Source: Chitinophagales bacterium (GTDB lineage: Bacteria; Bacteroidota; Bacteroidia; Chitinophagales; JADIYW01). Taken from it: 46,914 nucleotides of DNA. The position numbers were made by a program, and so were the translations under genes. The notes below the pieces were generated by a model, which saw nothing but the letters and a program-made list of their open reading frames with translations, was not told the origin of the DNA and searched no databases. The stretch is from positions 1-46,914 of the forward strand of contig JADKZZ010000069.1 in the NCBI GenBank assembly GCA_020848475.1, written 5' to 3'. This document shows, piece by piece, positions 33,983-46,193 of this stretch (its first letter is position 1; each line of letters begins with the position of its first letter).

Positions 33983-34012
33983 AAAAATCCGTCGTTAGAC
34001 GGATTTTTTTTA
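33983..34012. terminator. Bidirectional intrinsic terminator
   Basis: AAAAATCCGTC pairs with GACGGATTTTT around GTTA, with T runs on both strands. It lies between convergent genes, the repeat protein on plus and MurF-Alr on minus, and touches the MurF-Alr stop codon. Confidence 0.88.
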
Positions 34013-36478
34013 ATCTAGATAATACAAACGTTTTACTCTCGAAGAAATGCGCGTCAGCAACTCATAAGAAATAGTGCCTATTTTATTGGCTTGTTCAATA
34101 ATCGAAATTTCCTTTCCATAGATTTCACACTCGTCGCCATCTTTCACATCATCGATGTGCGTGATGTCGGCCATACACATATCCATACAAACATTGCCAA
34201 TAATTTGAGCGCGCTGGCCAGCAATAAAAACTTCGCCAATACCATTGCCAAAGCGCCTGTCATAACCATCGGCATAGCCGATAGCGAGCACTGCAATTTT
34301 CATCGCTTTTTGCACTACACCTTTGCGTGAATATCCAACCGTTTCGCCTGCTTGCACATGCTTTATTTGTGCTATACGAGTTTTTAGTTTGCCGATAACT
34401 TGTAGCTTATCTTGTATGTTAGAAGCACTGTCCACACCATATAAACCTATACCTAAACGAACAAAATCGAAATGTGCTTCCGGAAATCGCAAGATGCCAC
34501 TCGAATTTGCAAGGTGCTTTTTAATAGGATAATTAAAGGCAGCGCAAAAGGTATTAGCTATTTGTGAAAATTGTGCAATTTGTTGCTTTGTGAAGTTGTC
34601 AAAATGCGCATCTTCGCTGGCAGCCAAATGCGAGAAAATAGTTTTTATACTAATGTTTTGATGCTGCTGCAAAAGCTTGATTAATTCAGTAATTGCGCTG
34701 GCTTCAAAACCTAAACGATTCATACCGGTTTCTACTTTGATATGTATATCGATTTTTCTATTTCCAATACAATCAATAAGCTGCTGCAAAATAGATATAG
34801 AATATATTTCAGGTTCTAAATGATATTCCAGCATTCTATCAAAATCTACTGCATCAGGATTCATCACCATAATAGGCAATTGTATATTGTTTTTACGTAG
34901 TTCCACACCTTCATCAGCGTAAGCGACTGCCAAATAATCTATTTTTTCTTTCTCTAATAATCGTGCTACTTCAATGCTGCCACTGCCATAAGAAAATGCT
35001 TTCACCATGGCAATTACACCACACGCTTTTGGTATATAACTTTTATAAACTTGTAAGTTATTTGAAAGCGCATTTAGGTTGACTTCTAACACTGTAGCAT
35101 GTGTTTGTCCAATAAGTTGCGCTGTAATTTTTTCAAAACTAAACAGACGAGCGCCTTTCAATAAAACCAATTCATTGTCGAAATGCAACACATTAAATTG
35201 TGCTATCAATTTTTCTGTGCTTTCAAAAACATACCATTCTTTAACAACGCCTGTTAATGATTCGATTTCGTGAATAAATGCTTTACCAACACCAATTATT
35301 TTATCAAATTTTGTATGTTGTAAAATAGATTTTAATCTTAATATAAATTCCTTTTCTGATAAACCAGAATCTATAAACTCTGAAATAATAAGCGTTCTTT
35401 TTTTATGAGTGTCTTGTTGTCGATAAAAATCTAATGCTATCTGCAAAGAATGAAAATCGGCACTATATGAATCGTCAATAATACTGCAATTATTGATGCC
35501 ATATTTTAATTCTAGGCGCATCGGCAGATTGCGCAACATCGAAATTTTTGTTTGAATAACAGCTGCACTAAATCCTAATTGCAAAAGTACAATAATGCAA
35601 TGCAGACAATTTTCTACAGATGCATCATCGCTAAATGGAATTATAAATTGCCACTTCTCTTTTTCCTTTCTTTGCGAAATGATATCAATGATTGTGGAAC
35701 TATTTTTCTTCTCTGTATGTATGATTCTATAGATAGATTTTTCTTGCTCACCAAATGAGATTTGTTGGCAATTAAGATTTGATAATTGCGCTTCATTTAC
35801 ATATTTATCACAGTAAATAAGCTCTTGGCAATTTTCAAATAATTTTAGCTTTTCTGCCAGTTTTTCATTCCTATCATTAAATCCTGCATCATGCGCAGAA
35901 CCAATGTTTGTTAATATTCCAATACTTGGCTGTATGATGTTTCTCAGCTTGTCCATCTCGCCACTCGTGGAAATGCCAGCCTCAAAAATGGCAAGCTCAT
36001 GCGTCGATTCAATCAGTAAAACAGATAAAGGAACGCCAATTTGTGAATTGTAACTTTTTGGACTCTTTACAATATTTTTTTCTGTAGATAATAATTGAAA
36101 CAGCCATTCTTTTACAATAGTTTTTCCATTACTACCAGTGATGCCAATTATAGGAATAGTAAATTGTTGTCGATGATAAATGGCCAATTGTTGTAATGCC
36201 GCATTAGTGTTTTCCACTTTGCAAAAATTTGCAACAGCATATTTTGTAAAATCTATTTCTTCAGAAACAATAAAGTTGCGTATGCCTTTTTCATAAGCAA
36301 TATCAATGTATTGATGGCCATTGTTTCTACCTATTAAACAAAAAAACAAACTAGTCGCTGCATTAGTAATTTGTCGTGTGTCGATGCAGGCGAGCGTGAG
36401 CATCGTATCTTCGTCAAACTGCAAAATGTTGCCGTTTACAATGTTATTTATTTCTGTAAATGTATATTTCATAGACAA
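34010..36478 (-). CDS. MurF-alanine racemase fusion protein
   Basis: 822 residues joining two enzymes of peptidoglycan precursor synthesis. Residues 1 to about 440 are MurF, which adds D-Ala-D-Ala to UDP-MurNAc-tripeptide: ATP loop ITGSNGKTIVKEW, AIFEAGISTSGEMDKL, NIGSAHDAGF and LLKGARLFSFEKI. Residues from about 455 on are alanine racemase, with the PLP lysine in MVKAFSYGSG near residue 491, VETGMNRLGF, and the catalytic Tyr region VLAIGYADGYDRRF, then NVCMDMCMADIT. This fusion is a known Bacteroidota arrangement. The MurF loop has I instead of the more common T after GKT, which is minor. It follows the Rieske gene after 21 bases and ends at a bidirectional terminator. Confidence 0.96.
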   Translation of the reverse strand: MSMKYTFTEINNIVNGNILQFDEDTMLTLACIDTRQITNAATSLFFCLIGRNNGHQYIDIAYEKGIRNFIVSEEIDFTKYAVANFCKVENTNAALQQLAIYHRQQFTIPIIGITGSNGKTIVKEWLFQLLSTEKNIVKSPKSYNSQIGVPLSVLLIESTHELAIFEAGISTSGEMDKLRNIIQPSIGILTNIGSAHDAGFNDRNEKLAEKLKLFENCQELIYCDKYVNEAQLSNLNCQQISFGEQEKSIYRIIHTEKKNSSTIIDIISQRKEKEKWQFIIPFSDDASVENCLHCIIVLLQLGFSAAVIQTKISMLRNLPMRLELKYGINNCSIIDDSYSADFHSLQIALDFYRQQDTHKKRTLIISEFIDSGLSEKEFILRLKSILQHTKFDKIIGVGKAFIHEIESLTGVVKEWYVFESTEKLIAQFNVLHFDNELVLLKGARLFSFEKITAQLIGQTHATVLEVNLNALSNNLQVYKSYIPKACGVIAMVKAFSYGSGSIEVARLLEKEKIDYLAVAYADEGVELRKNNIQLPIMVMNPDAVDFDRMLEYHLEPEIYSISILQQLIDCIGNRKIDIHIKVETGMNRLGFEASAITELIKLLQQHQNISIKTIFSHLAASEDAHFDNFTKQQIAQFSQIANTFCAAFNYPIKKHLANSSGILRFPEAHFDFVRLGIGLYGVDSASNIQDKLQVIGKLKTRIAQIKHVQAGETVGYSRKGVVQKAMKIAVLAIGYADGYDRRFGNGIGEVFIAGQRAQIIGNVCMDMCMADITHIDDVKDGDECEIYGKEISIIEQANKIGTISYELLTRISSRVKRLYYLD

Positions 36479-37748: not shown

Positions 37749-38873
37749 CTAAGACGATACTATAGACGCTTCTATTGAAGCGTCTATATTTTTTAAACCT
37801 TGTTGTAGTTCTTCTTCAGTTGGATAGCCAAATCCTAATCGGAAATAATGGTCTGCTTGTTCAAACCAATGACCCGCGCCCACAAAAGTCTTGAATTGTT
37901 CGTATAATATTGTATAAAACTTCTTGGTGTCAACAGTATATTCTTTTTTAATTCTTGGAAAACATACAACACCAGCATTTGGTCGTATCCATTCTAAATA
38001 ATGTTGTTCAATGTCCATCCAATTTTTAAGTACACTAAAGTTTTTTCTAATATGCTCGTGCGTTTTTTGTAGATAATTTTCTTGTTGTAATATATGCAGT
38101 GCAATGGCTTCATCGACAACAGAATTGCAGATGATAATTTGTTCTTTTGCTGCGAGAAAATCGTGCTGTAATTTTTTGTTTTTAGTAATCAGCCAGCCAG
38201 TTCGAATGCCTGGTGTGCCATGTGCTTTTGATAAAGAACAAACAGAAATTACCTTGTCACTTTTAGCAGCATAATAAGGCATCATATCACGCTGGAAATT
38301 CAAGTAACGGTATGTTTCATCAACCAATACGTTGATATTTCTTTCTGTAGCAAATGCTATAATTTCTTCCAATATTTTATTGTCAAAAACTACACCTGTC
38401 GGATTGTGCGGCGAAGTAAGGCTGATTAATTTAGTGTTTGGTTTTACTGCATTTTTTATTTGCTCAATATCTAATTGAAAACCACTTTCAAATTGTAAAT
38501 CAATAAATGAAATCTCACAATTGATAGCTCTTGGTGTTTCTATGTTAGTAGCATAATTTGGTCGCAATACCACCAGATGGTCCTTATCGTTTAATAAAGT
38601 AGTAGAAATAATAAATAAAGCAGTTGCCGCACTTGGACAAACTAAGACATCATCGGCACTTAGGTCCTTTTCATTTTTAACAATCTCATTTCTCAATGCA
38701 ATATTTCCTCGATGTTCCGCATAACAAAGAAATACTTCGTCTAAGTTGATTTGTAAATCACGGAAATAAATATCGCGAACAGAACTTTCTGCTAAATTAT
38801 ATTGTATCGACGCATAGCCCATTTCTTCAGGCGATTCTGATTCTATGGACATACGTTTAAAGTGCATATGCAA
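37749..38873 (-). CDS. PLP-dependent class I/II aminotransferase
   Basis: 374 residues of fold type I. SPHNPTGVVFDN near residue 154 and the PLP-binding lysine in VCSLSKAHGTPGIRTGWL near residue 214 are clear; ETYRYL and the C-terminal FRLGFGYPTEEELQQGL also fit the class I/II family. Substrates cannot be predicted; it could act on an amino acid or be biosynthetic, as nothing around it points to a pathway. The N-terminus has alternative ATG codons (MHMHFKRMSIE). Its final codons double as a terminator hairpin for the opposite gene. Alone on the minus strand, 108 bases beyond the beta-helix gene. Confidence 0.87.
   Translation of the reverse strand: MHMHFKRMSIESESPEEMGYASIQYNLAESSVRDIYFRDLQINLDEVFLCYAEHRGNIALRNEIVKNEKDLSADDVLVCPSAATALFIISTTLLNDKDHLVVLRPNYATNIETPRAINCEISFIDLQFESGFQLDIEQIKNAVKPNTKLISLTSPHNPTGVVFDNKILEEIIAFATERNINVLVDETYRYLNFQRDMMPYYAAKSDKVISVCSLSKAHGTPGIRTGWLITKNKKLQHDFLAAKEQIIICNSVVDEAIALHILQQENYLQKTHEHIRKNFSVLKNWMDIEQHYLEWIRPNAGVVCFPRIKKEYTVDTKKFYTILYEQFKTFVGAGHWFEQADHYFRLGFGYPTEEELQQGLKNIDASIEASIVSS
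37761..37794 (+). terminator. Terminator inside the aminotransferase 3' end
   Basis: TATAGACGCTTC pairs perfectly with GAAGCGTCTATA around TATT and is followed by T residues on the plus strand, 22 bases after the lipoprotein stop. The same bases encode a DASIEAS-like stretch of the aminotransferase. Confidence 0.85.
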
Positions 38874-38981: not shown

Positions 38982-40232
38982 TCATTGTTTTAATGGCGAA
39001 TGATTTCCGCTAATGTTTGGAATACTACCTTGGAAAGAAGACAGATTACTTTCATAAGTTTTCAATACGTTCTCCAAAACTGGCGATTTATAAGCATTTA
39101 AGTTGAAAAATTTGATATCGCCATTGTTAGTAAAATACGATTTATATCGAGCTTGTAAATTGCCATTGCCATCACTCATGGCTTTGTTGTAATTATGGTC
39201 GTAAATAATGTCTGCCGGTCCTTTAGACATGGCTACAATCAGCTTTCCTAAATTTGTGCTTAAGTCAGGAATCAACATGGTTTTGCGTTTGAAAATATTA
39301 TCATGTATGTATATAGAAGTACAATAAGGTGTATAAATACTGTCTGTAAACGGTCTGCCTGTTGCATAGTAGCTGACCGCACAACAGCCTAATGTTTTAT
39401 TGTTTTCGAATGTGTTATTGAATACTTCTACACTATCATATGCCATAACAATAATGCCACTGCCAGGTGGAATATCGGCAACATAGCTGCCTGGCTTTGC
39501 AAAATTCTTAAAATTATTTTCTCGTACTATGTTGTTAAATACACGACAATTTCTACCATTCTTCATCGGAATTCCAGGTAAGTCATATATTACAAAACCG
39601 CCAGTATTATTGTGCGATAGATTATCGTGGACATCTACATTGATACAGTTTTCAATTTCAATACCGCACACATTGTGGTGCGCAACGCAGTTGCGCACCG
39701 TTACATTATAGGATTGACCAACATACACACCTGCATCTGCACAGTAGGAAACTTCTGAATTTTCTATCAATACATTTCTACACTCAACAGGATAATATCC
39801 ATAGTTTCCATTGGCTGAGTCGGCGCCAGTTGTCCATGTAGAGTTCATGTGGCGAATCACAACATCTGTACAGCCTTTTAATTTGATATTGTCGCCTTTA
39901 GCATCTTGTATGGTAAAATTTTCAAGTGTAATGGCATTGCAATTGCTAAAGTTCATGCCTTCAGCGCCTTCGATTTGTCCAAGAAATGAAAAAATAGTTT
40001 TATCGACACCTTTTCCTTTTATGGTAATGTTTTTTTTGCCTTCCATAGAAAGCGATTTGCTAAATTTGTAATTGCCTTCCGGTAGTTCAATAGTGCCTCC
40101 ATCTTCTACAAGAATAAATTGCTCTTGTAACTCTTTCTGTAACTTTTCATCTACAACGAATGTATTGTTTTCTTTGTTTTGCTTGCACGAAAATACGCTT
40201 ACACATAGTACTAAAATAAATAAATGCTTCAT
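38982..40232 (-). CDS. Right-handed parallel beta-helix lipoprotein (copy B)
   Basis: 416 residues. Lipobox SVFSC with lipidated Cys16. The mature protein starts with a strand-rich cap (LVEDGGTIELPEGNYKFSKS) and then stacks repeats typical of right-handed beta helices: NITIKGKGVDKTIFSF, ITLENFTIQDAKGDNIKLKG, VVIRHMNSTWTTGADSANG, VLIENSEVSYCADAGVYVGQ. It matches from memory the family described by TIGR03805 (parallel beta-helix proteins regularly paired with a second secreted family, function unknown). It is strongly similar to copy A. It is the third gene of the cluster, 144 bases downstream of the cytochrome gene, across a repeat. Such folds often bind or cut polysaccharides, but no catalytic residues are assigned. 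Confidence 0.87.
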   Translation of the reverse strand: MKHLFILVLCVSVFSCKQNKENNTFVVDEKLQKELQEQFILVEDGGTIELPEGNYKFSKSLSMEGKKNITIKGKGVDKTIFSFLGQIEGAEGMNFSNCNAITLENFTIQDAKGDNIKLKGCTDVVIRHMNSTWTTGADSANGNYGYYPVECRNVLIENSEVSYCADAGVYVGQSYNVTVRNCVAHHNVCGIEIENCINVDVHDNLSHNNTGGFVIYDLPGIPMKNGRNCRVFNNIVRENNFKNFAKPGSYVADIPPGSGIIVMAYDSVEVFNNTFENNKTLGCCAVSYYATGRPFTDSIYTPYCTSIYIHDNIFKRKTMLIPDLSTNLGKLIVAMSKGPADIIYDHNYNKAMSDGNGNLQARYKSYFTNNGDIKFFNLNAYKSPVLENVLKTYESNLSSFQGSIPNISGNHSPLKQ

Positions 40233-40286
40233 GGAAATAAAGATAGAACTTTATTTTCTTTGTTAATAAGAAAATAAAAAACAAGC

Positions 40287-40350
40287 GTCATTCTCTTGAA
40301 ACATGGAATCTCATAAATAATATTTTGATTCCCACGAAAGTGGAATGACA
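40287..40350. repeat. REP-like inverted repeat pair
   Basis: Two diverged units face each other: GTCATTCtC...GGAATC at 40287-40310 and GATTCC...GGAATGAC at 40327-40349. The outer arms GTCATTC/GAATGAC and inner arms GGAATC/GATTCC are perfect complements. The second unit itself forms a hairpin (TTCCCAC-GAAA-GTGGAA). It occupies the gap between the cytochrome and beta-helix B genes and resembles dispersed intergenic repeats known in Bacteroidota. Confidence 0.6.
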
Positions 40351-40376
40351 TTTTTTGTAACAATATTAGGTATGTT

Positions 40377-41450
40377 TTATTTCATTTCACTTATCCATTC
40401 TCTGATGAGTGCAACACCTTCTACATGTTGAATGCTTCTGCCTAATTCAGGCATACGTATTTCTGGATCATTTTCGGATAATCGATACACCAAAATGCTT
40501 TCATCTGGTTTGCCTGGAACAACATCAAATAGATTGTCTCCACTTGCTGCACCAGCAGCAACTGGGCTTTTCATAATGCCCCAACTTTCTGGATTATTGT
40601 CTTTCGTTAATAAAAACAAACCTGAAGTATTAGCACTGCCTTCTGGACGGTGGCAGTGAGCGCAATTAATTTCAAGATATGATTTTGCTCTTTCTTCTAA
40701 GGTGCCACTTTTCACATCAAAAGCATCTGCCATTTTATTTGTCAAGTTTTCTTCTTTATTATAGCCTTTTAAATAACCAACTGCTGCCCATTTTTCCAAT
40801 TGGTTTTTTGAACCATCAGCATATTTAAAATCCTTATTCAGATATCGAACCTTCGGCCCGATAGGTAATAATACATTGTTTAAGTTATGACAGTTTTTAC
40901 ATTGGTTTTTATTAGGAACGGAATAATCAACATGTATATTTTTACCATGTAAATTAACGAAATCTACTTTTTTGCTGTCTCCTGCAATGTTTAAGAATGC
41001 TTCCGTTTGTTCGTCATTCCAAACATACGCATTAGCGTCCCATTTGTCGGCACGTTTAATTAATAATCGTGTTTCGACAATTCGTCTTCCTTTTGAGGCA
41101 TTCGTTTCATCGTTTTCATAAAAGAAATTTTTTATTAAAACTGTGCCTACAGGAAAATCTAATGCTTCCTCTTTGTTATACTTTGCACTTGTGCCTTCTG
41201 GCATCCATACAAAACGAGCTTTGTGTGCATAGTCTGTAAATAATGCGGTATTGATGTCATAAGGCAAAACTTTATCATTTGGATTCAAATCTTTAAGTGC
41301 GCCTGTAAAGAAATGATATTCAGAAAGCTTCTCCAGTGGTTTGGCGTTTATATCAAGGTTTACTTTATTGCTCGAAGTTTTACATTGATTCAATAGAAAT
41401 AAGCAGCTTATAGAAATACTAAGTACGCTGAATAGGGTAATTTTTTTCAT
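40377..41450 (-). CDS. Diheme c-type cytochrome lipoprotein (SO2930/HNE_0200-like)
   Basis: 357 residues. A signal peptide ends in LLNQC (Cys23 probably lipidated, although Gln before it is unusual). Two haem c sites are seen: QCKNCHNLNN near residue 181 and NCAHCHRPEG near 263; a Met in the C-terminal IRMPELGRSIQ may be a haem ligand. The N-terminal half (YDINTALFTDYAHKARFVWM, FPVGTVLIKNFFY) matches the uncharacterised family, recalled as TIGR03806, that is regularly adjacent or fused to the beta-helix family. It lies six bases after beta-helix A. The likely role is electron transfer at the envelope; the donor, acceptor and substrate are unknown. Haem attachment needs Ccm or Ccs genes elsewhere. 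Confidence 0.88.
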   Translation of the reverse strand: MKKITLFSVLSISISCLFLLNQCKTSSNKVNLDINAKPLEKLSEYHFFTGALKDLNPNDKVLPYDINTALFTDYAHKARFVWMPEGTSAKYNKEEALDFPVGTVLIKNFFYENDETNASKGRRIVETRLLIKRADKWDANAYVWNDEQTEAFLNIAGDSKKVDFVNLHGKNIHVDYSVPNKNQCKNCHNLNNVLLPIGPKVRYLNKDFKYADGSKNQLEKWAAVGYLKGYNKEENLTNKMADAFDVKSGTLEERAKSYLEINCAHCHRPEGSANTSGLFLLTKDNNPESWGIMKSPVAAGAASGDNLFDVVPGKPDESILVYRLSENDPEIRMPELGRSIQHVEGVALIREWISEMK

Positions 41451-41456
41451 GTTTAT

Positions 41457-42749
41457 TTATTTTGCGCTTGCTGGATCTGTGTTATTGCCTCTAATACCTG
41501 TGTAACTGCAATCAAATTTTGTGATGTCATCATCTTTGTAATTCATGATGTCTTTGATGCCACTTGCTTTCCATGCGTTAAGATTGCCAAATGTGACCTT
41601 GCCATTATTTCTTACACATATTCTTTTTCCTTCGGGCAATTGTCCGTTTTTATCTCTGATTTTTGGATCCGAGGAGCCATCTACTAAAATATCTACCGCA
41701 CCTTTGAATGTTGCAGTCAATAGTTTGCCTAAATCTGTAGATAAGTCAGGCACTTTTTCTGTTAATGACAATCCACTTCTGTCAAACTTATTATCATGTA
41801 TATAAATGGCAGTACAATAAGGGCCATACGTGGTGTCATTTATGGGCTTGCCCGTAAGGTGATAGCTGATAGTAGATATGCCAACAGTTTTATTGTTAAT
41901 GATTCTATTGTTGAATACATCAACGCTATCTGTTGCCATAATAATTAAACCAGAACCTGGAGGTATCGATGCTACAATACTGCCAGGTTTTCCAAAGTTT
42001 TTAAAGTTGTTGTTCAAACAATCATTGTCCCAGATTTTGGCATTTCTGCCATTTCCTTGAAATAATTTTGGCAAATCGAAAACCAAAATTCCACCCGCAT
42101 TATTTTCTGCTTTATTTTTATATACGTCAGAGTTAATACAGTTTTCAATTTCAATTCCAGCTACATTATGATGTGCATAACAGTGTCGTACGATAACATT
42201 AGTAGATTGTCCAACATACACACCTGCATCAGCACAGTAAGACACTTCGCAATGTTCCATCAATACATTTTTGCACTCAACTGGATAATAGCCATAATTA
42301 CCATTAGACGTGTCGGCGCCAGTTGTCCAAGTAGAGTTCATATGTCTAATGATAACACCATCACAACCTTTAAGCTTAAGATTATCGCCTTTTGCATCTT
42401 GAATAGTGAATTGTTCAATGGTCACATTTTGGCAATTGGTGATATTAATACCTTCTGCACCTTCCGTTTGTCCAAGAAATGATAAAACAGTTTTGCCGGC
42501 ACCTGCTCCCTTTATGGTTACATTTTTCTTGCCTTCCATTGATAAGTCTTTCTTAAATAAGAATTTGCCTTCAGGGAATTCTACCGTACCACCATCTTCT
42601 ACCAGAATCAGCTTTTCTTGAAATTCTTTTTCAATTTTTTCATCATAAACAAAGCCATCAGTGTCGCCAGCTTTTTTACCACTATTTGAACATGCTTGTA
42701 GAAAGGCGAAAAATATCACCAATAATGATAGATTAATTAACTTGTACAT
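41457..42749 (-). CDS. Right-handed parallel beta-helix lipoprotein (copy A)
   Basis: 430 residues and first gene of the three-gene cluster. Lipobox FLQAC, Cys20. It parallels copy B through most of its length: LVEDGGTVEFPEGKFLFKKD, TVLSFLGQTEGAEGINITNC, VIIRHMNSTWTTGADTSNGN and YYPVECKNVLMEHCEVSYCA. The two genes differ at many synonymous positions, so the duplication is not recent and both proteins are under selection. The C-terminal ends differ (copy A has GITGIRGNNTDPASAK-like residues). The cytochrome gene follows after six bases, indicating one transcript. Divergent from the ABC importer with a 229-base gap. The extracytoplasmic ligand is unknown. Confidence 0.88.
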   Translation of the reverse strand: MYKLINLSLLVIFFAFLQACSNSGKKAGDTDGFVYDEKIEKEFQEKLILVEDGGTVEFPEGKFLFKKDLSMEGKKNVTIKGAGAGKTVLSFLGQTEGAEGINITNCQNVTIEQFTIQDAKGDNLKLKGCDGVIIRHMNSTWTTGADTSNGNYGYYPVECKNVLMEHCEVSYCADAGVYVGQSTNVIVRHCYAHHNVAGIEIENCINSDVYKNKAENNAGGILVFDLPKLFQGNGRNAKIWDNDCLNNNFKNFGKPGSIVASIPPGSGLIIMATDSVDVFNNRIINNKTVGISTISYHLTGKPINDTTYGPYCTAIYIHDNKFDRSGLSLTEKVPDLSTDLGKLLTATFKGAVDILVDGSSDPKIRDKNGQLPEGKRICVRNNGKVTFGNLNAWKASGIKDIMNYKDDDITKFDCSYTGIRGNNTDPASAK

Positions 42750-44774: not shown

Positions 44775-46193
44775 ATGCTGAAATACATATTTAAACGAAT
44801 ATTACTATTCATTCCTACCTTATTCATGATTTCGTTGTTGACGTTTTTCTTGAGTACTAACGTGCCTGGCGATCCAGTAGAACAAATGCTAAACTCCAAC
44901 AGCGAAATGGGCAGCTCTGCAAAAGCTCAAGCCGCAGAAAAAGCTTATATCGATAAGCGCAAACAACTGGGACTAGATTTGCCGACTTTCTACTTTTCTA
45001 TTACTAATAGTGCAACGCCAAAAGATTTATATACGATTCCTAAAAAATTTCATCGAGAAAATTTGTCTAAACTTATTGAGCAATATGGCAATTGGAAACA
45101 AATCAATGCTTATTATTTGTCACTCAAAAAACTCGAAGAGTCACTCGGAAGTGTAACAAGCGATTCTGTAAATGCTGATGCGCTTATAGCAATGAAAAGC
45201 GACGCACAACAATTATATATCGAGCCTGAAGATAAAACTATCAATTTGTTATTTAAAGACATGCTAGCACAGTTGCATGTTGCTGATAATCTTAAAGTGT
45301 TAGAAGCTGATATTGTTAATTCATCAAAATTGTATGCTGACGTTACACGACATGCAACTACATATAAAAAATTTATACCAGCCATTCAATGGTATGGCAC
45401 AAAAAATCAATACCACCAGTGGATTACCAAATTTATGGTAGGTGACTTCGGCATATCTTATCAAGATGAAAAGCCCGTAAAAACGGTTATTTGGGAAGCT
45501 ATACGCTGGACTGTTTTGTTGAGTATAATTTCCATTTTATTAACCTATCTCATCGCCATTCCATTAGGTATTGTATCGGCAGCGAACAAAGGTGGCATCA
45601 AAGACCAAACCATATCAACAACATTATTTATTTTGTATTCATTGCCAAGTTTCTGGGTGGCTACTTTGTTAATTATGTTTTTTGGCGGCGGAGATTTTTT
45701 CAATTTTTTCCCATCATTTGGTGTGCCGCAAGCAACGGAAAATATGTCCTTCTTTACTAAGTTTACAAATTATGTTTGGCATCTTACTTTGCCCATTATC
45801 TGTTATACTTATGGTGGCTTAGCATTTATTTCAAGGCAAATGCGTGGCGCAATGGTCAATTCCTTGTCGCAAGATTATGTGCGTACAGCACGTGCAAAAG
45901 GATTAGACGAGGAAAAAGTATTATGGAAACATGCTATCAAAAATTCATTATTGCCAATTATCACTTTGTTTGCCAATGTGTTTCCCTTGGCTATAAGTGG
46001 TGCTGTTGCATTAGAATTAATATTTTCCATTCCAGGAATGGGCAAGACCGCCTATGAAGCCTTAGTTGCCCGTAATTATCCAGTTGTATATACGATAGTC
46101 ATGTTTTCCGCTATCTTAACTTTAGTTGGTTATTTAGTGGCTGATATTTTATATGCTGTAGTAGATCCAAGAATTTCTTATAACAAAAAATAA
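44775..46193 (+). CDS. DppB/OppB-like ABC permease with a large insert
   Basis: 472 residues, about 150 more than typical DppB. The N-terminal membrane segment and NVPGDPVEQML, and the later GDFGISYQDEKPVK, TARAKGLDEEKVLWKHAIKN (EAA loop to the ATPase) and SIPGMGKTAYEALVARNYP, are the family hallmarks. The extra ~140 residues lie between LGLDLPTFYFSI and HQWITKFMVGDFG, that is, in the first periplasmic loop, and are helical and charged. Enlarged loops of this kind also occur in other Bacteroidota permeases as far as I recall. The next permease gene begins five bases downstream. Confidence 0.92.
   Translation: MLKYIFKRILLFIPTLFMISLLTFFLSTNVPGDPVEQMLNSNSEMGSSAKAQAAEKAYIDKRKQLGLDLPTFYFSITNSATPKDLYTIPKKFHRENLSKLIEQYGNWKQINAYYLSLKKLEESLGSVTSDSVNADALIAMKSDAQQLYIEPEDKTINLLFKDMLAQLHVADNLKVLEADIVNSSKLYADVTRHATTYKKFIPAIQWYGTKNQYHQWITKFMVGDFGISYQDEKPVKTVIWEAIRWTVLLSIISILLTYLIAIPLGIVSAANKGGIKDQTISTTLFILYSLPSFWVATLLIMFFGGGDFFNFFPSFGVPQATENMSFFTKFTNYVWHLTLPIICYTYGGLAFISRQMRGAMVNSLSQDYVRTARAKGLDEEKVLWKHAIKNSLLPIITLFANVFPLAISGAVALELIFSIPGMGKTAYEALVARNYPVVYTIVMFSAILTLVGYLVADILYAVVDPRISYNKK

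Follow-up and report, generated by a model that had tools for sequence, protein, structure and literature searches.

Two paralogous beta-helix lipoproteins around a diheme cytochrome c in a Chitinophagales bacterium: a possible outer-membrane redox module

Why should one diheme cytochrome c be flanked by two beta-helix lipoproteins, and what might the three do together? The question is raised by a cluster of three minus-strand genes in contig JADKZZ010000069.1 of a Chitinophagales bacterium, the whole 46,914-nucleotide stretch being called the window here. In the direction of transcription, the cluster opens with a beta-helix lipoprotein gene (A; 41,457-42,749, 430 amino acids), which is followed after a spacer of 6 nucleotides (nt; 41,451-41,456) by the gene of a diheme c-type cytochrome lipoprotein (40,377-41,450, 357 amino acids) and, after a gap of 144 nt (40,233-40,376), by an extra beta-helix lipoprotein gene (B; 38,982-40,232, 416 amino acids). 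All features of the cluster given below lie on this strand. An initial annotation had described these same reading frames, with A and the cytochrome six bases apart, as paralogous beta helices flanking a diheme cytochrome, and had likened them to TIGR03805 and TIGR03806. This description proved accurate. A and B are 57% identical across 413 amino acids and score 333.9 and 337.5 bits against the TIGR03805 profile (NCBIfam beta_helix_1; curated cut-off 141.5), while the cytochrome has two CXXCH motifs and scores 397.3 bits against TIGR03806, the "SO2930 family" (cut-off 313.3), across model positions 3-314 of 314.

We tentatively propose, at somewhat less than even probability, that the cluster encodes an outer-membrane redox module in which a beta-helix presents a ligand, probably a sugar, and the cytochrome drains electrons, A and B being alternative ligand-presenting subunits. 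A lipid anchor would hold all three proteins in the outer membrane, and each beta-helix would bind a specific, probably carbohydrate-derived ligand at an acidic and aromatic patch (D174, E200 and E202 with Y152, Y155, Y178, K125 and Q181). The cytochrome would dock onto the beta-helix and accept electrons from oxidation of the ligand, for which either the module or a partner dehydrogenase would be responsible; its His/Met haem would then pass them on to carriers in the periplasm. One cytochrome would serve both A and B. We favour this proposal because of the families themselves, their co-occurrence and gene order, their fusions (to the cytochrome, to GSDH and to MauG), the carbohydrate-enzyme folds, the neighbouring genes for TonB receptors, sulfatases, 3-keto-disaccharide hydrolases and GH88 enzymes, an invariant methionine (Met333) in the cytochrome and the purifying selection on B.

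The two families had been described in the initial annotation as a regular pair, and the neighbourhood survey supports this. Among 61 relatives, 33 have both families, one the beta-helix only, two the cytochrome only and 25 neither (Fisher p ~1e-13); of the two with the cytochrome only, G040 still has a beta-helix fragment, which lies at the end of a contig. From the phylum sample, 16 of the 18 beta-helix-bearing genomes checked also gave a TIGR03806 match over the cut-off. Of the 80 named loci, which were fetched by way of the cytochrome, 61 have a beta-helix gene upstream of it in the same orientation, the median gap being 5 nt; the rest comprise one fusion, five loci cut at a contig end and 13 without an upstream beta-helix. 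Pseudomonadota have 21 adjacent pairs (median gap -4 nt) and five fused ones, and single-chain beta-helix/cytochrome fusions were found six times in all (L134, L204, L223, L224, L225 and L229). The pair is widespread, occurring in Bacteroidota, Pseudomonadota, Acidobacteriota, Hydrogenedentota, Isosphaeraceae and other genomes, and no third gene conserved across all loci was found. It is already known as a pair, and its function is not explained in the literature searched, where we found no functional study under TIGR03805, TIGR03806, SO2930 or SO2931. The window cluster resembles it in having both families over cut-off, the beta-helix just upstream of the cytochrome and envelope signals; it differs in the second, diverged beta-helix gene after the cytochrome.

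Where would these proteins reside? A, the cytochrome and B each have a hydrophobic N-terminus followed by a lipobox-like cysteine, read by eye from the translations: LQAC in A (Cys20; 42,690-42,701), LNQC in the cytochrome (Cys23; 41,382-41,393) and VFSC in B (Cys16; 40,185-40,196). These stretches fit the envelope-targeting signals claimed earlier, and we infer that all three proteins are held in the outer membrane by lipid anchors. Surface lipoproteins of Bacteroidota carry acidic export signals after the lipobox cysteine. Since the residues at this place are unlike such signals, anchoring that faces the periplasm is at least as likely, and the surface location that the initial annotation gave to the beta helix is unsupported.

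The genes around the pair also bear on its location. Within 2.5 kilobases of the pair, TonB receptor genes lie on the same strand in 15 cases and on the opposite strand in one with the Bacteroidota-type seed, and in 10 and none with the Pseudomonadota-type seed, some loci being included under both seeds. AraC or TetR regulators near the pair are mostly divergent. The TonB neighbours point to the outer membrane, and would also suit an electron conduit in which the cytochrome exchanges electrons with minerals or with further cytochromes of the outer membrane, while the beta-helix serves as no more than a scaffold or an anchor to cell-surface polysaccharide. SO_2930, the namesake of the family, is listed with SO_2931, an outer-membrane cytochrome, among the outer-membrane or extracellular cytochromes of Shewanella (PMC4837345), the two also being listed together in PMC12175506; the adjacency of the two genes, however, is deduced from locus tags only. 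Furthermore, a multihaem cytochrome (more than two motifs) was not seen beside the pair in the loci surveyed, and the invariant polar residues of the beta-helix are denser than a scaffold needs. We therefore consider a conduit doubtful.

In a subset of Bacteroidota loci the neighbours suggest a carbohydrate substrate for the redox module. A sulfatase gene starts 2-5 nt downstream of the pair in five loci, a 3-keto-disaccharide hydrolase gene lies 25-160 nt downstream in four, and in three there are upstream genes for GH88 (Pfam-tested) and for what we take to be a GH95-like enzyme. In Novosphingobium, the pair is found among alcohol, aldehyde and PQQ (pyrroloquinoline quinone) dehydrogenases and TonB receptors; in one such locus (L246, 8,027-11,819) the TonB receptor upstream of the pair is apparently split by an IS5 transposase.

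The beta-helix proteins themselves are consistent with ligand binding. In an alignment of 70 relatives the most conserved stretch of A is D122-N203 (42,141-42,386), and the invariant residues, in A numbering, are D122, K125, W141, Y152, Y155, D174, Y178, Q181, E200, E202 and N203, a set retained in 111-112 of 112 unfused relatives. Judged by sequence register only, the invariant polar residues appear on successive coils. In the AlphaFold2 model of the fused relative L134 (predicted template modelling score, pTM, 0.73), a disordered linker joins two confidently predicted parts, a right-handed beta-helix and a cytochrome region that has a beta domain of its own, and the solved folds nearest to a fused relative in Foldseek are alginate epimerases, polysaccharide lyases and GH87 and GH28 enzymes; sequence search of the PDB gave weak beta-helix matches only. 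The placing of the invariant polar residues together with this likeness of fold makes it likely that the beta-helix holds a ligand-binding or catalytic cleft.

The likeness to carbohydrate-active beta-helix enzymes (AlgE-type mannuronan C5-epimerases, alginate and pectate lyases, RbmB) lies in the right-handed fold (Foldseek E ~2e-6, with 2pyg and 5lw3 among the matches to the model of the fused relative) and in conserved polar residues lined up on consecutive coils. Identity, in contrast, is only 10-17%, and the Lys-Tyr-Asp-His set of AlgE4 (K117, Y149, D152, H154) is not conserved in TIGR03805: a weak alignment sets A175, Y178 and V179 at Y149, D152 and H154, and none of the residues invariant in the 70 aligned relatives is a histidine. 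AlgE-type epimerase chemistry is ruled out on these residues. NosD, also a periplasmic parallel beta-helix protein with a weak profile match to A and B, raises the idea that the beta-helix is a maturation factor, or delivers a metal or cofactor, for the cytochrome or a partner enzyme. The scores of A and B (22.7 and 24.5 bits) are far under the TIGR04247 cut-off of 300, so that membership of NosD is rejected; with no invariant copper-binding His, Cys or Met, and with fold matches to carbohydrate enzymes, a NosD-like role appears very improbable.

How might the cytochrome accept electrons? Its two CXXCH motifs are CKNCH at residues 184-188 (haem 1; 40,887-40,901) and CAHCH at residues 263-267 (haem 2; 40,650-40,664), and exactly two such motifs are present in 132 of 133 relatives. 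Met333 is found in 73 of 73 cytochromes and is likely the distal ligand of haem 2, which would give this haem the CXXCH and distal Met of a class I cytochrome c; the Pfam PF00034 score of 21.2 is marginally below the cut-off of 21.3. For haem 1, no His or Met outside the motif itself is invariant, and the candidate sixth ligand is His265, present in 71 of 73. AlphaFold2 modelled the window cytochrome with a predicted local distance difference score (pLDDT) of 94.5 and a pTM of 0.89, with a beta domain at the N-terminus and two haem sites. A PDB sequence search with the cytochrome returned no match, and Foldseek with the model none at E <= 0.001 (best 7e-3). The fold may not have been described before, with the reservation that models lacking haem score poorly. 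The genome contains a cytochrome c assembly gene, and a cytochrome c assembly-like match (L245, G000:C155:56585-57139) has three in-frame stops and is perhaps a decayed gene.

Two further sets of proteins show what each half of the pair can be joined to. TIGR03806-like modules are fused to GSDH, a PQQ-type glucose/sorbosone dehydrogenase, in L144, L226, L227 and L228, the largest of which add F5/8, CBM26, ThuA or planctomycete-type cytochrome domains. These PQQ-dependent fusions resemble the window system in having the diheme module, here after the dehydrogenase domain, and differ in that they have no beta-helix and do not keep K294 of the cytochrome or Y176, which are conserved in partners of the beta-helix. 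Since K294 is invariant in unfused cytochromes, kept in five of six beta-helix fusions and absent with GSDH, it is a candidate contact with the beta-helix. On the other side, a Bacteroidota protein (L234, 7,685-9,979) has a TIGR03805 beta-helix fused to a MauG/MbnH-like diheme enzyme, and in L240 and L247 (2,971-7,197, of the Ruegeria pomeroyi megaplasmid) a TIGR03805 protein with a CBB3-type haem domain just below the Pfam cut-off has a CCP_MauG gene nearby. MauG/MbnH-like enzymes, fused or in an operon, take the place of TIGR03806 beside TIGR03805 in three lineages. These fusions and neighbours, with TIGR03806, MauG and CBB3-type domains, tie the beta-helix family to unrelated kinds of c-type haem protein. 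The initial annotation had suggested oxidative attack on, or electron transfer from, a bound polymer; the beta-helix/cytochrome, beta-helix/MauG and cytochrome/sugar-dehydrogenase fusions strengthen the redox link, and oxidative attack on a polymer would be one of several readings of it.

The exchange of haem partners raises the possibility that the cytochrome is itself a catalytic diheme enzyme of the MauG/MbnH kind, in which the His/Met haem would shuttle electrons and the other haem would activate peroxide or oxygen, so as to oxidise a bound substrate or to turn conserved Tyr or Trp residues of the beta-helix into a protein-derived cofactor. MauG, MbnH and CCP enzymes likewise have two c-type haems and stand in for the cytochrome beside some TIGR03805 proteins, by fusion (L234) or adjacency (L240, L247). 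Haem 1 is without an invariant distal His or Met, as would suit such chemistry, but it could be ligated by His265 or a Lys. Both MauG-linked beta-helices examined retain Y152 and Y178 as Tyr, together with D174, E200, E202 and N203, though not K125. The window cytochrome, however, has no match to PF03150 (CCP_MauG), TIGR03806 is without sequence or fold match to MauG, and the GSDH fusions suggest plain electron acceptance. A MauG-like enzyme is therefore unlikely, and less likely than the redox module. More improbable again is that TIGR03806 represents a catalytic diheme oxidase so far unrecognised, interchangeable with MauG/MbnH and of a fold absent from the PDB, which would oxidise a sugar held by the beta-helix or make a Tyr- or Trp-derived redox cofactor. 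If true, this would add a new type of system for carbohydrate oxidation, and the present cluster would give it two exchangeable arms for the substrate. The cytochrome swaps, the fusions and the reuse with GSDH allow direct tests of whether sugars are oxidised, of whether a complex forms and of how the haems react.

Several observations weigh against the redox module that we prefer. The beta-helix and cytochrome genes are on separate contigs in the f9 genomes (G020, G039, G051) and in G024, linkage of the pair having been lost in some genomes. The model of the L134 fusion, with its disordered linker, shows no interface between beta-helix and cytochrome, and we know of no redox cofactor site in the beta-helix. 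Glycan-related neighbours are present in a minority of loci, and none of the open reading frames tested near the window cluster is a TonB receptor or glycan gene. The neighbours in the window are housekeeping genes and an Opp-type transporter, and hence give no hint of a substrate.

Why, then, is the beta-helix doubled? The order of beta-helix, cytochrome and beta-helix that had been noted for this locus recurs in five of the eight genomes of the genus (the window genome, G002, G003, G004 and G006); G001 and G005 have A only and G007 is cut at a contig end. It was not seen elsewhere in the phylum sample of 297 genomes, and among the genomes searched it is restricted to this genus. The pair has one beta-helix per cytochrome, whereas in the window B follows the cytochrome, which is a departure in copy number and not an argument against family membership. 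In the tree, A (seven congener rows) and B (five rows) form separate clades with full support (B 100/100). The sister genus (G010) has a single copy, which belongs to neither clade, so that the duplication is older than the spread of the genus, B having probably been lost twice. Purifying selection is strong on both A and B (pN 0.11-0.19 against pS 0.66-0.86), and B retains all family-invariant residues, which rules out B as a decaying duplicate. Its fixed changes include, in A numbering, F224 to Y, A197 to C and T273 to Y; the conserved stretch of B, D114-N195 (39,648-39,893), contains Cys189 (A197 of A), with Tyr216 and Tyr265 just after. The best reading is that B is a second specificity beside A, and the genus offers a natural experiment on the specificity of beta-helices that share a single cytochrome. 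Tandem beta-helix genes also occur in a Hydrogenedentota genome (L233, 3,737-6,305), on a different contig from its cytochromes.

The gap before B is 144 nt in the window and 16-38 nt in the four other congeners with the doubled order. Within it lies a degraded copy (core 40,327-40,350) of the palindrome CATTCCCACGAAAGTGGGAAT, which is dispersed in the genome in about 16 perfect copies (none for the reversed control) and is a REP-like (repetitive extragenic palindrome) element. The gap is predicted to fold more stably than most of its shuffled versions (z -2.2), and expression of B has perhaps been altered. As no minus-strand terminator-like site was found in the gap, B is probably in the same operon. 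Upstream of A there was no match to the Bacteroidota promoter motif (TTTG...TANNTTTG), whose matches in the window are at or below chance level.

Downstream of B lies a class I/II aminotransferase-like gene (37,749-38,873, minus strand). It is possibly co-transcribed with B, because no minus-strand terminator-like site was seen between them, and is outside the conserved module, its cluster being at the same place in three congeners only. Elsewhere in the window, one open reading frame (34,010-36,478, 822 amino acids) has Mur ligase and alanine racemase domains, as in a MurF-Alr-like fusion. In the Opp-type permease (44,775-46,193, 472 amino acids) the main permease match covers residues 210-467 only (BPD domain 261-468), an extent that suggests that a long segment has been inserted behind the N-terminal helix.

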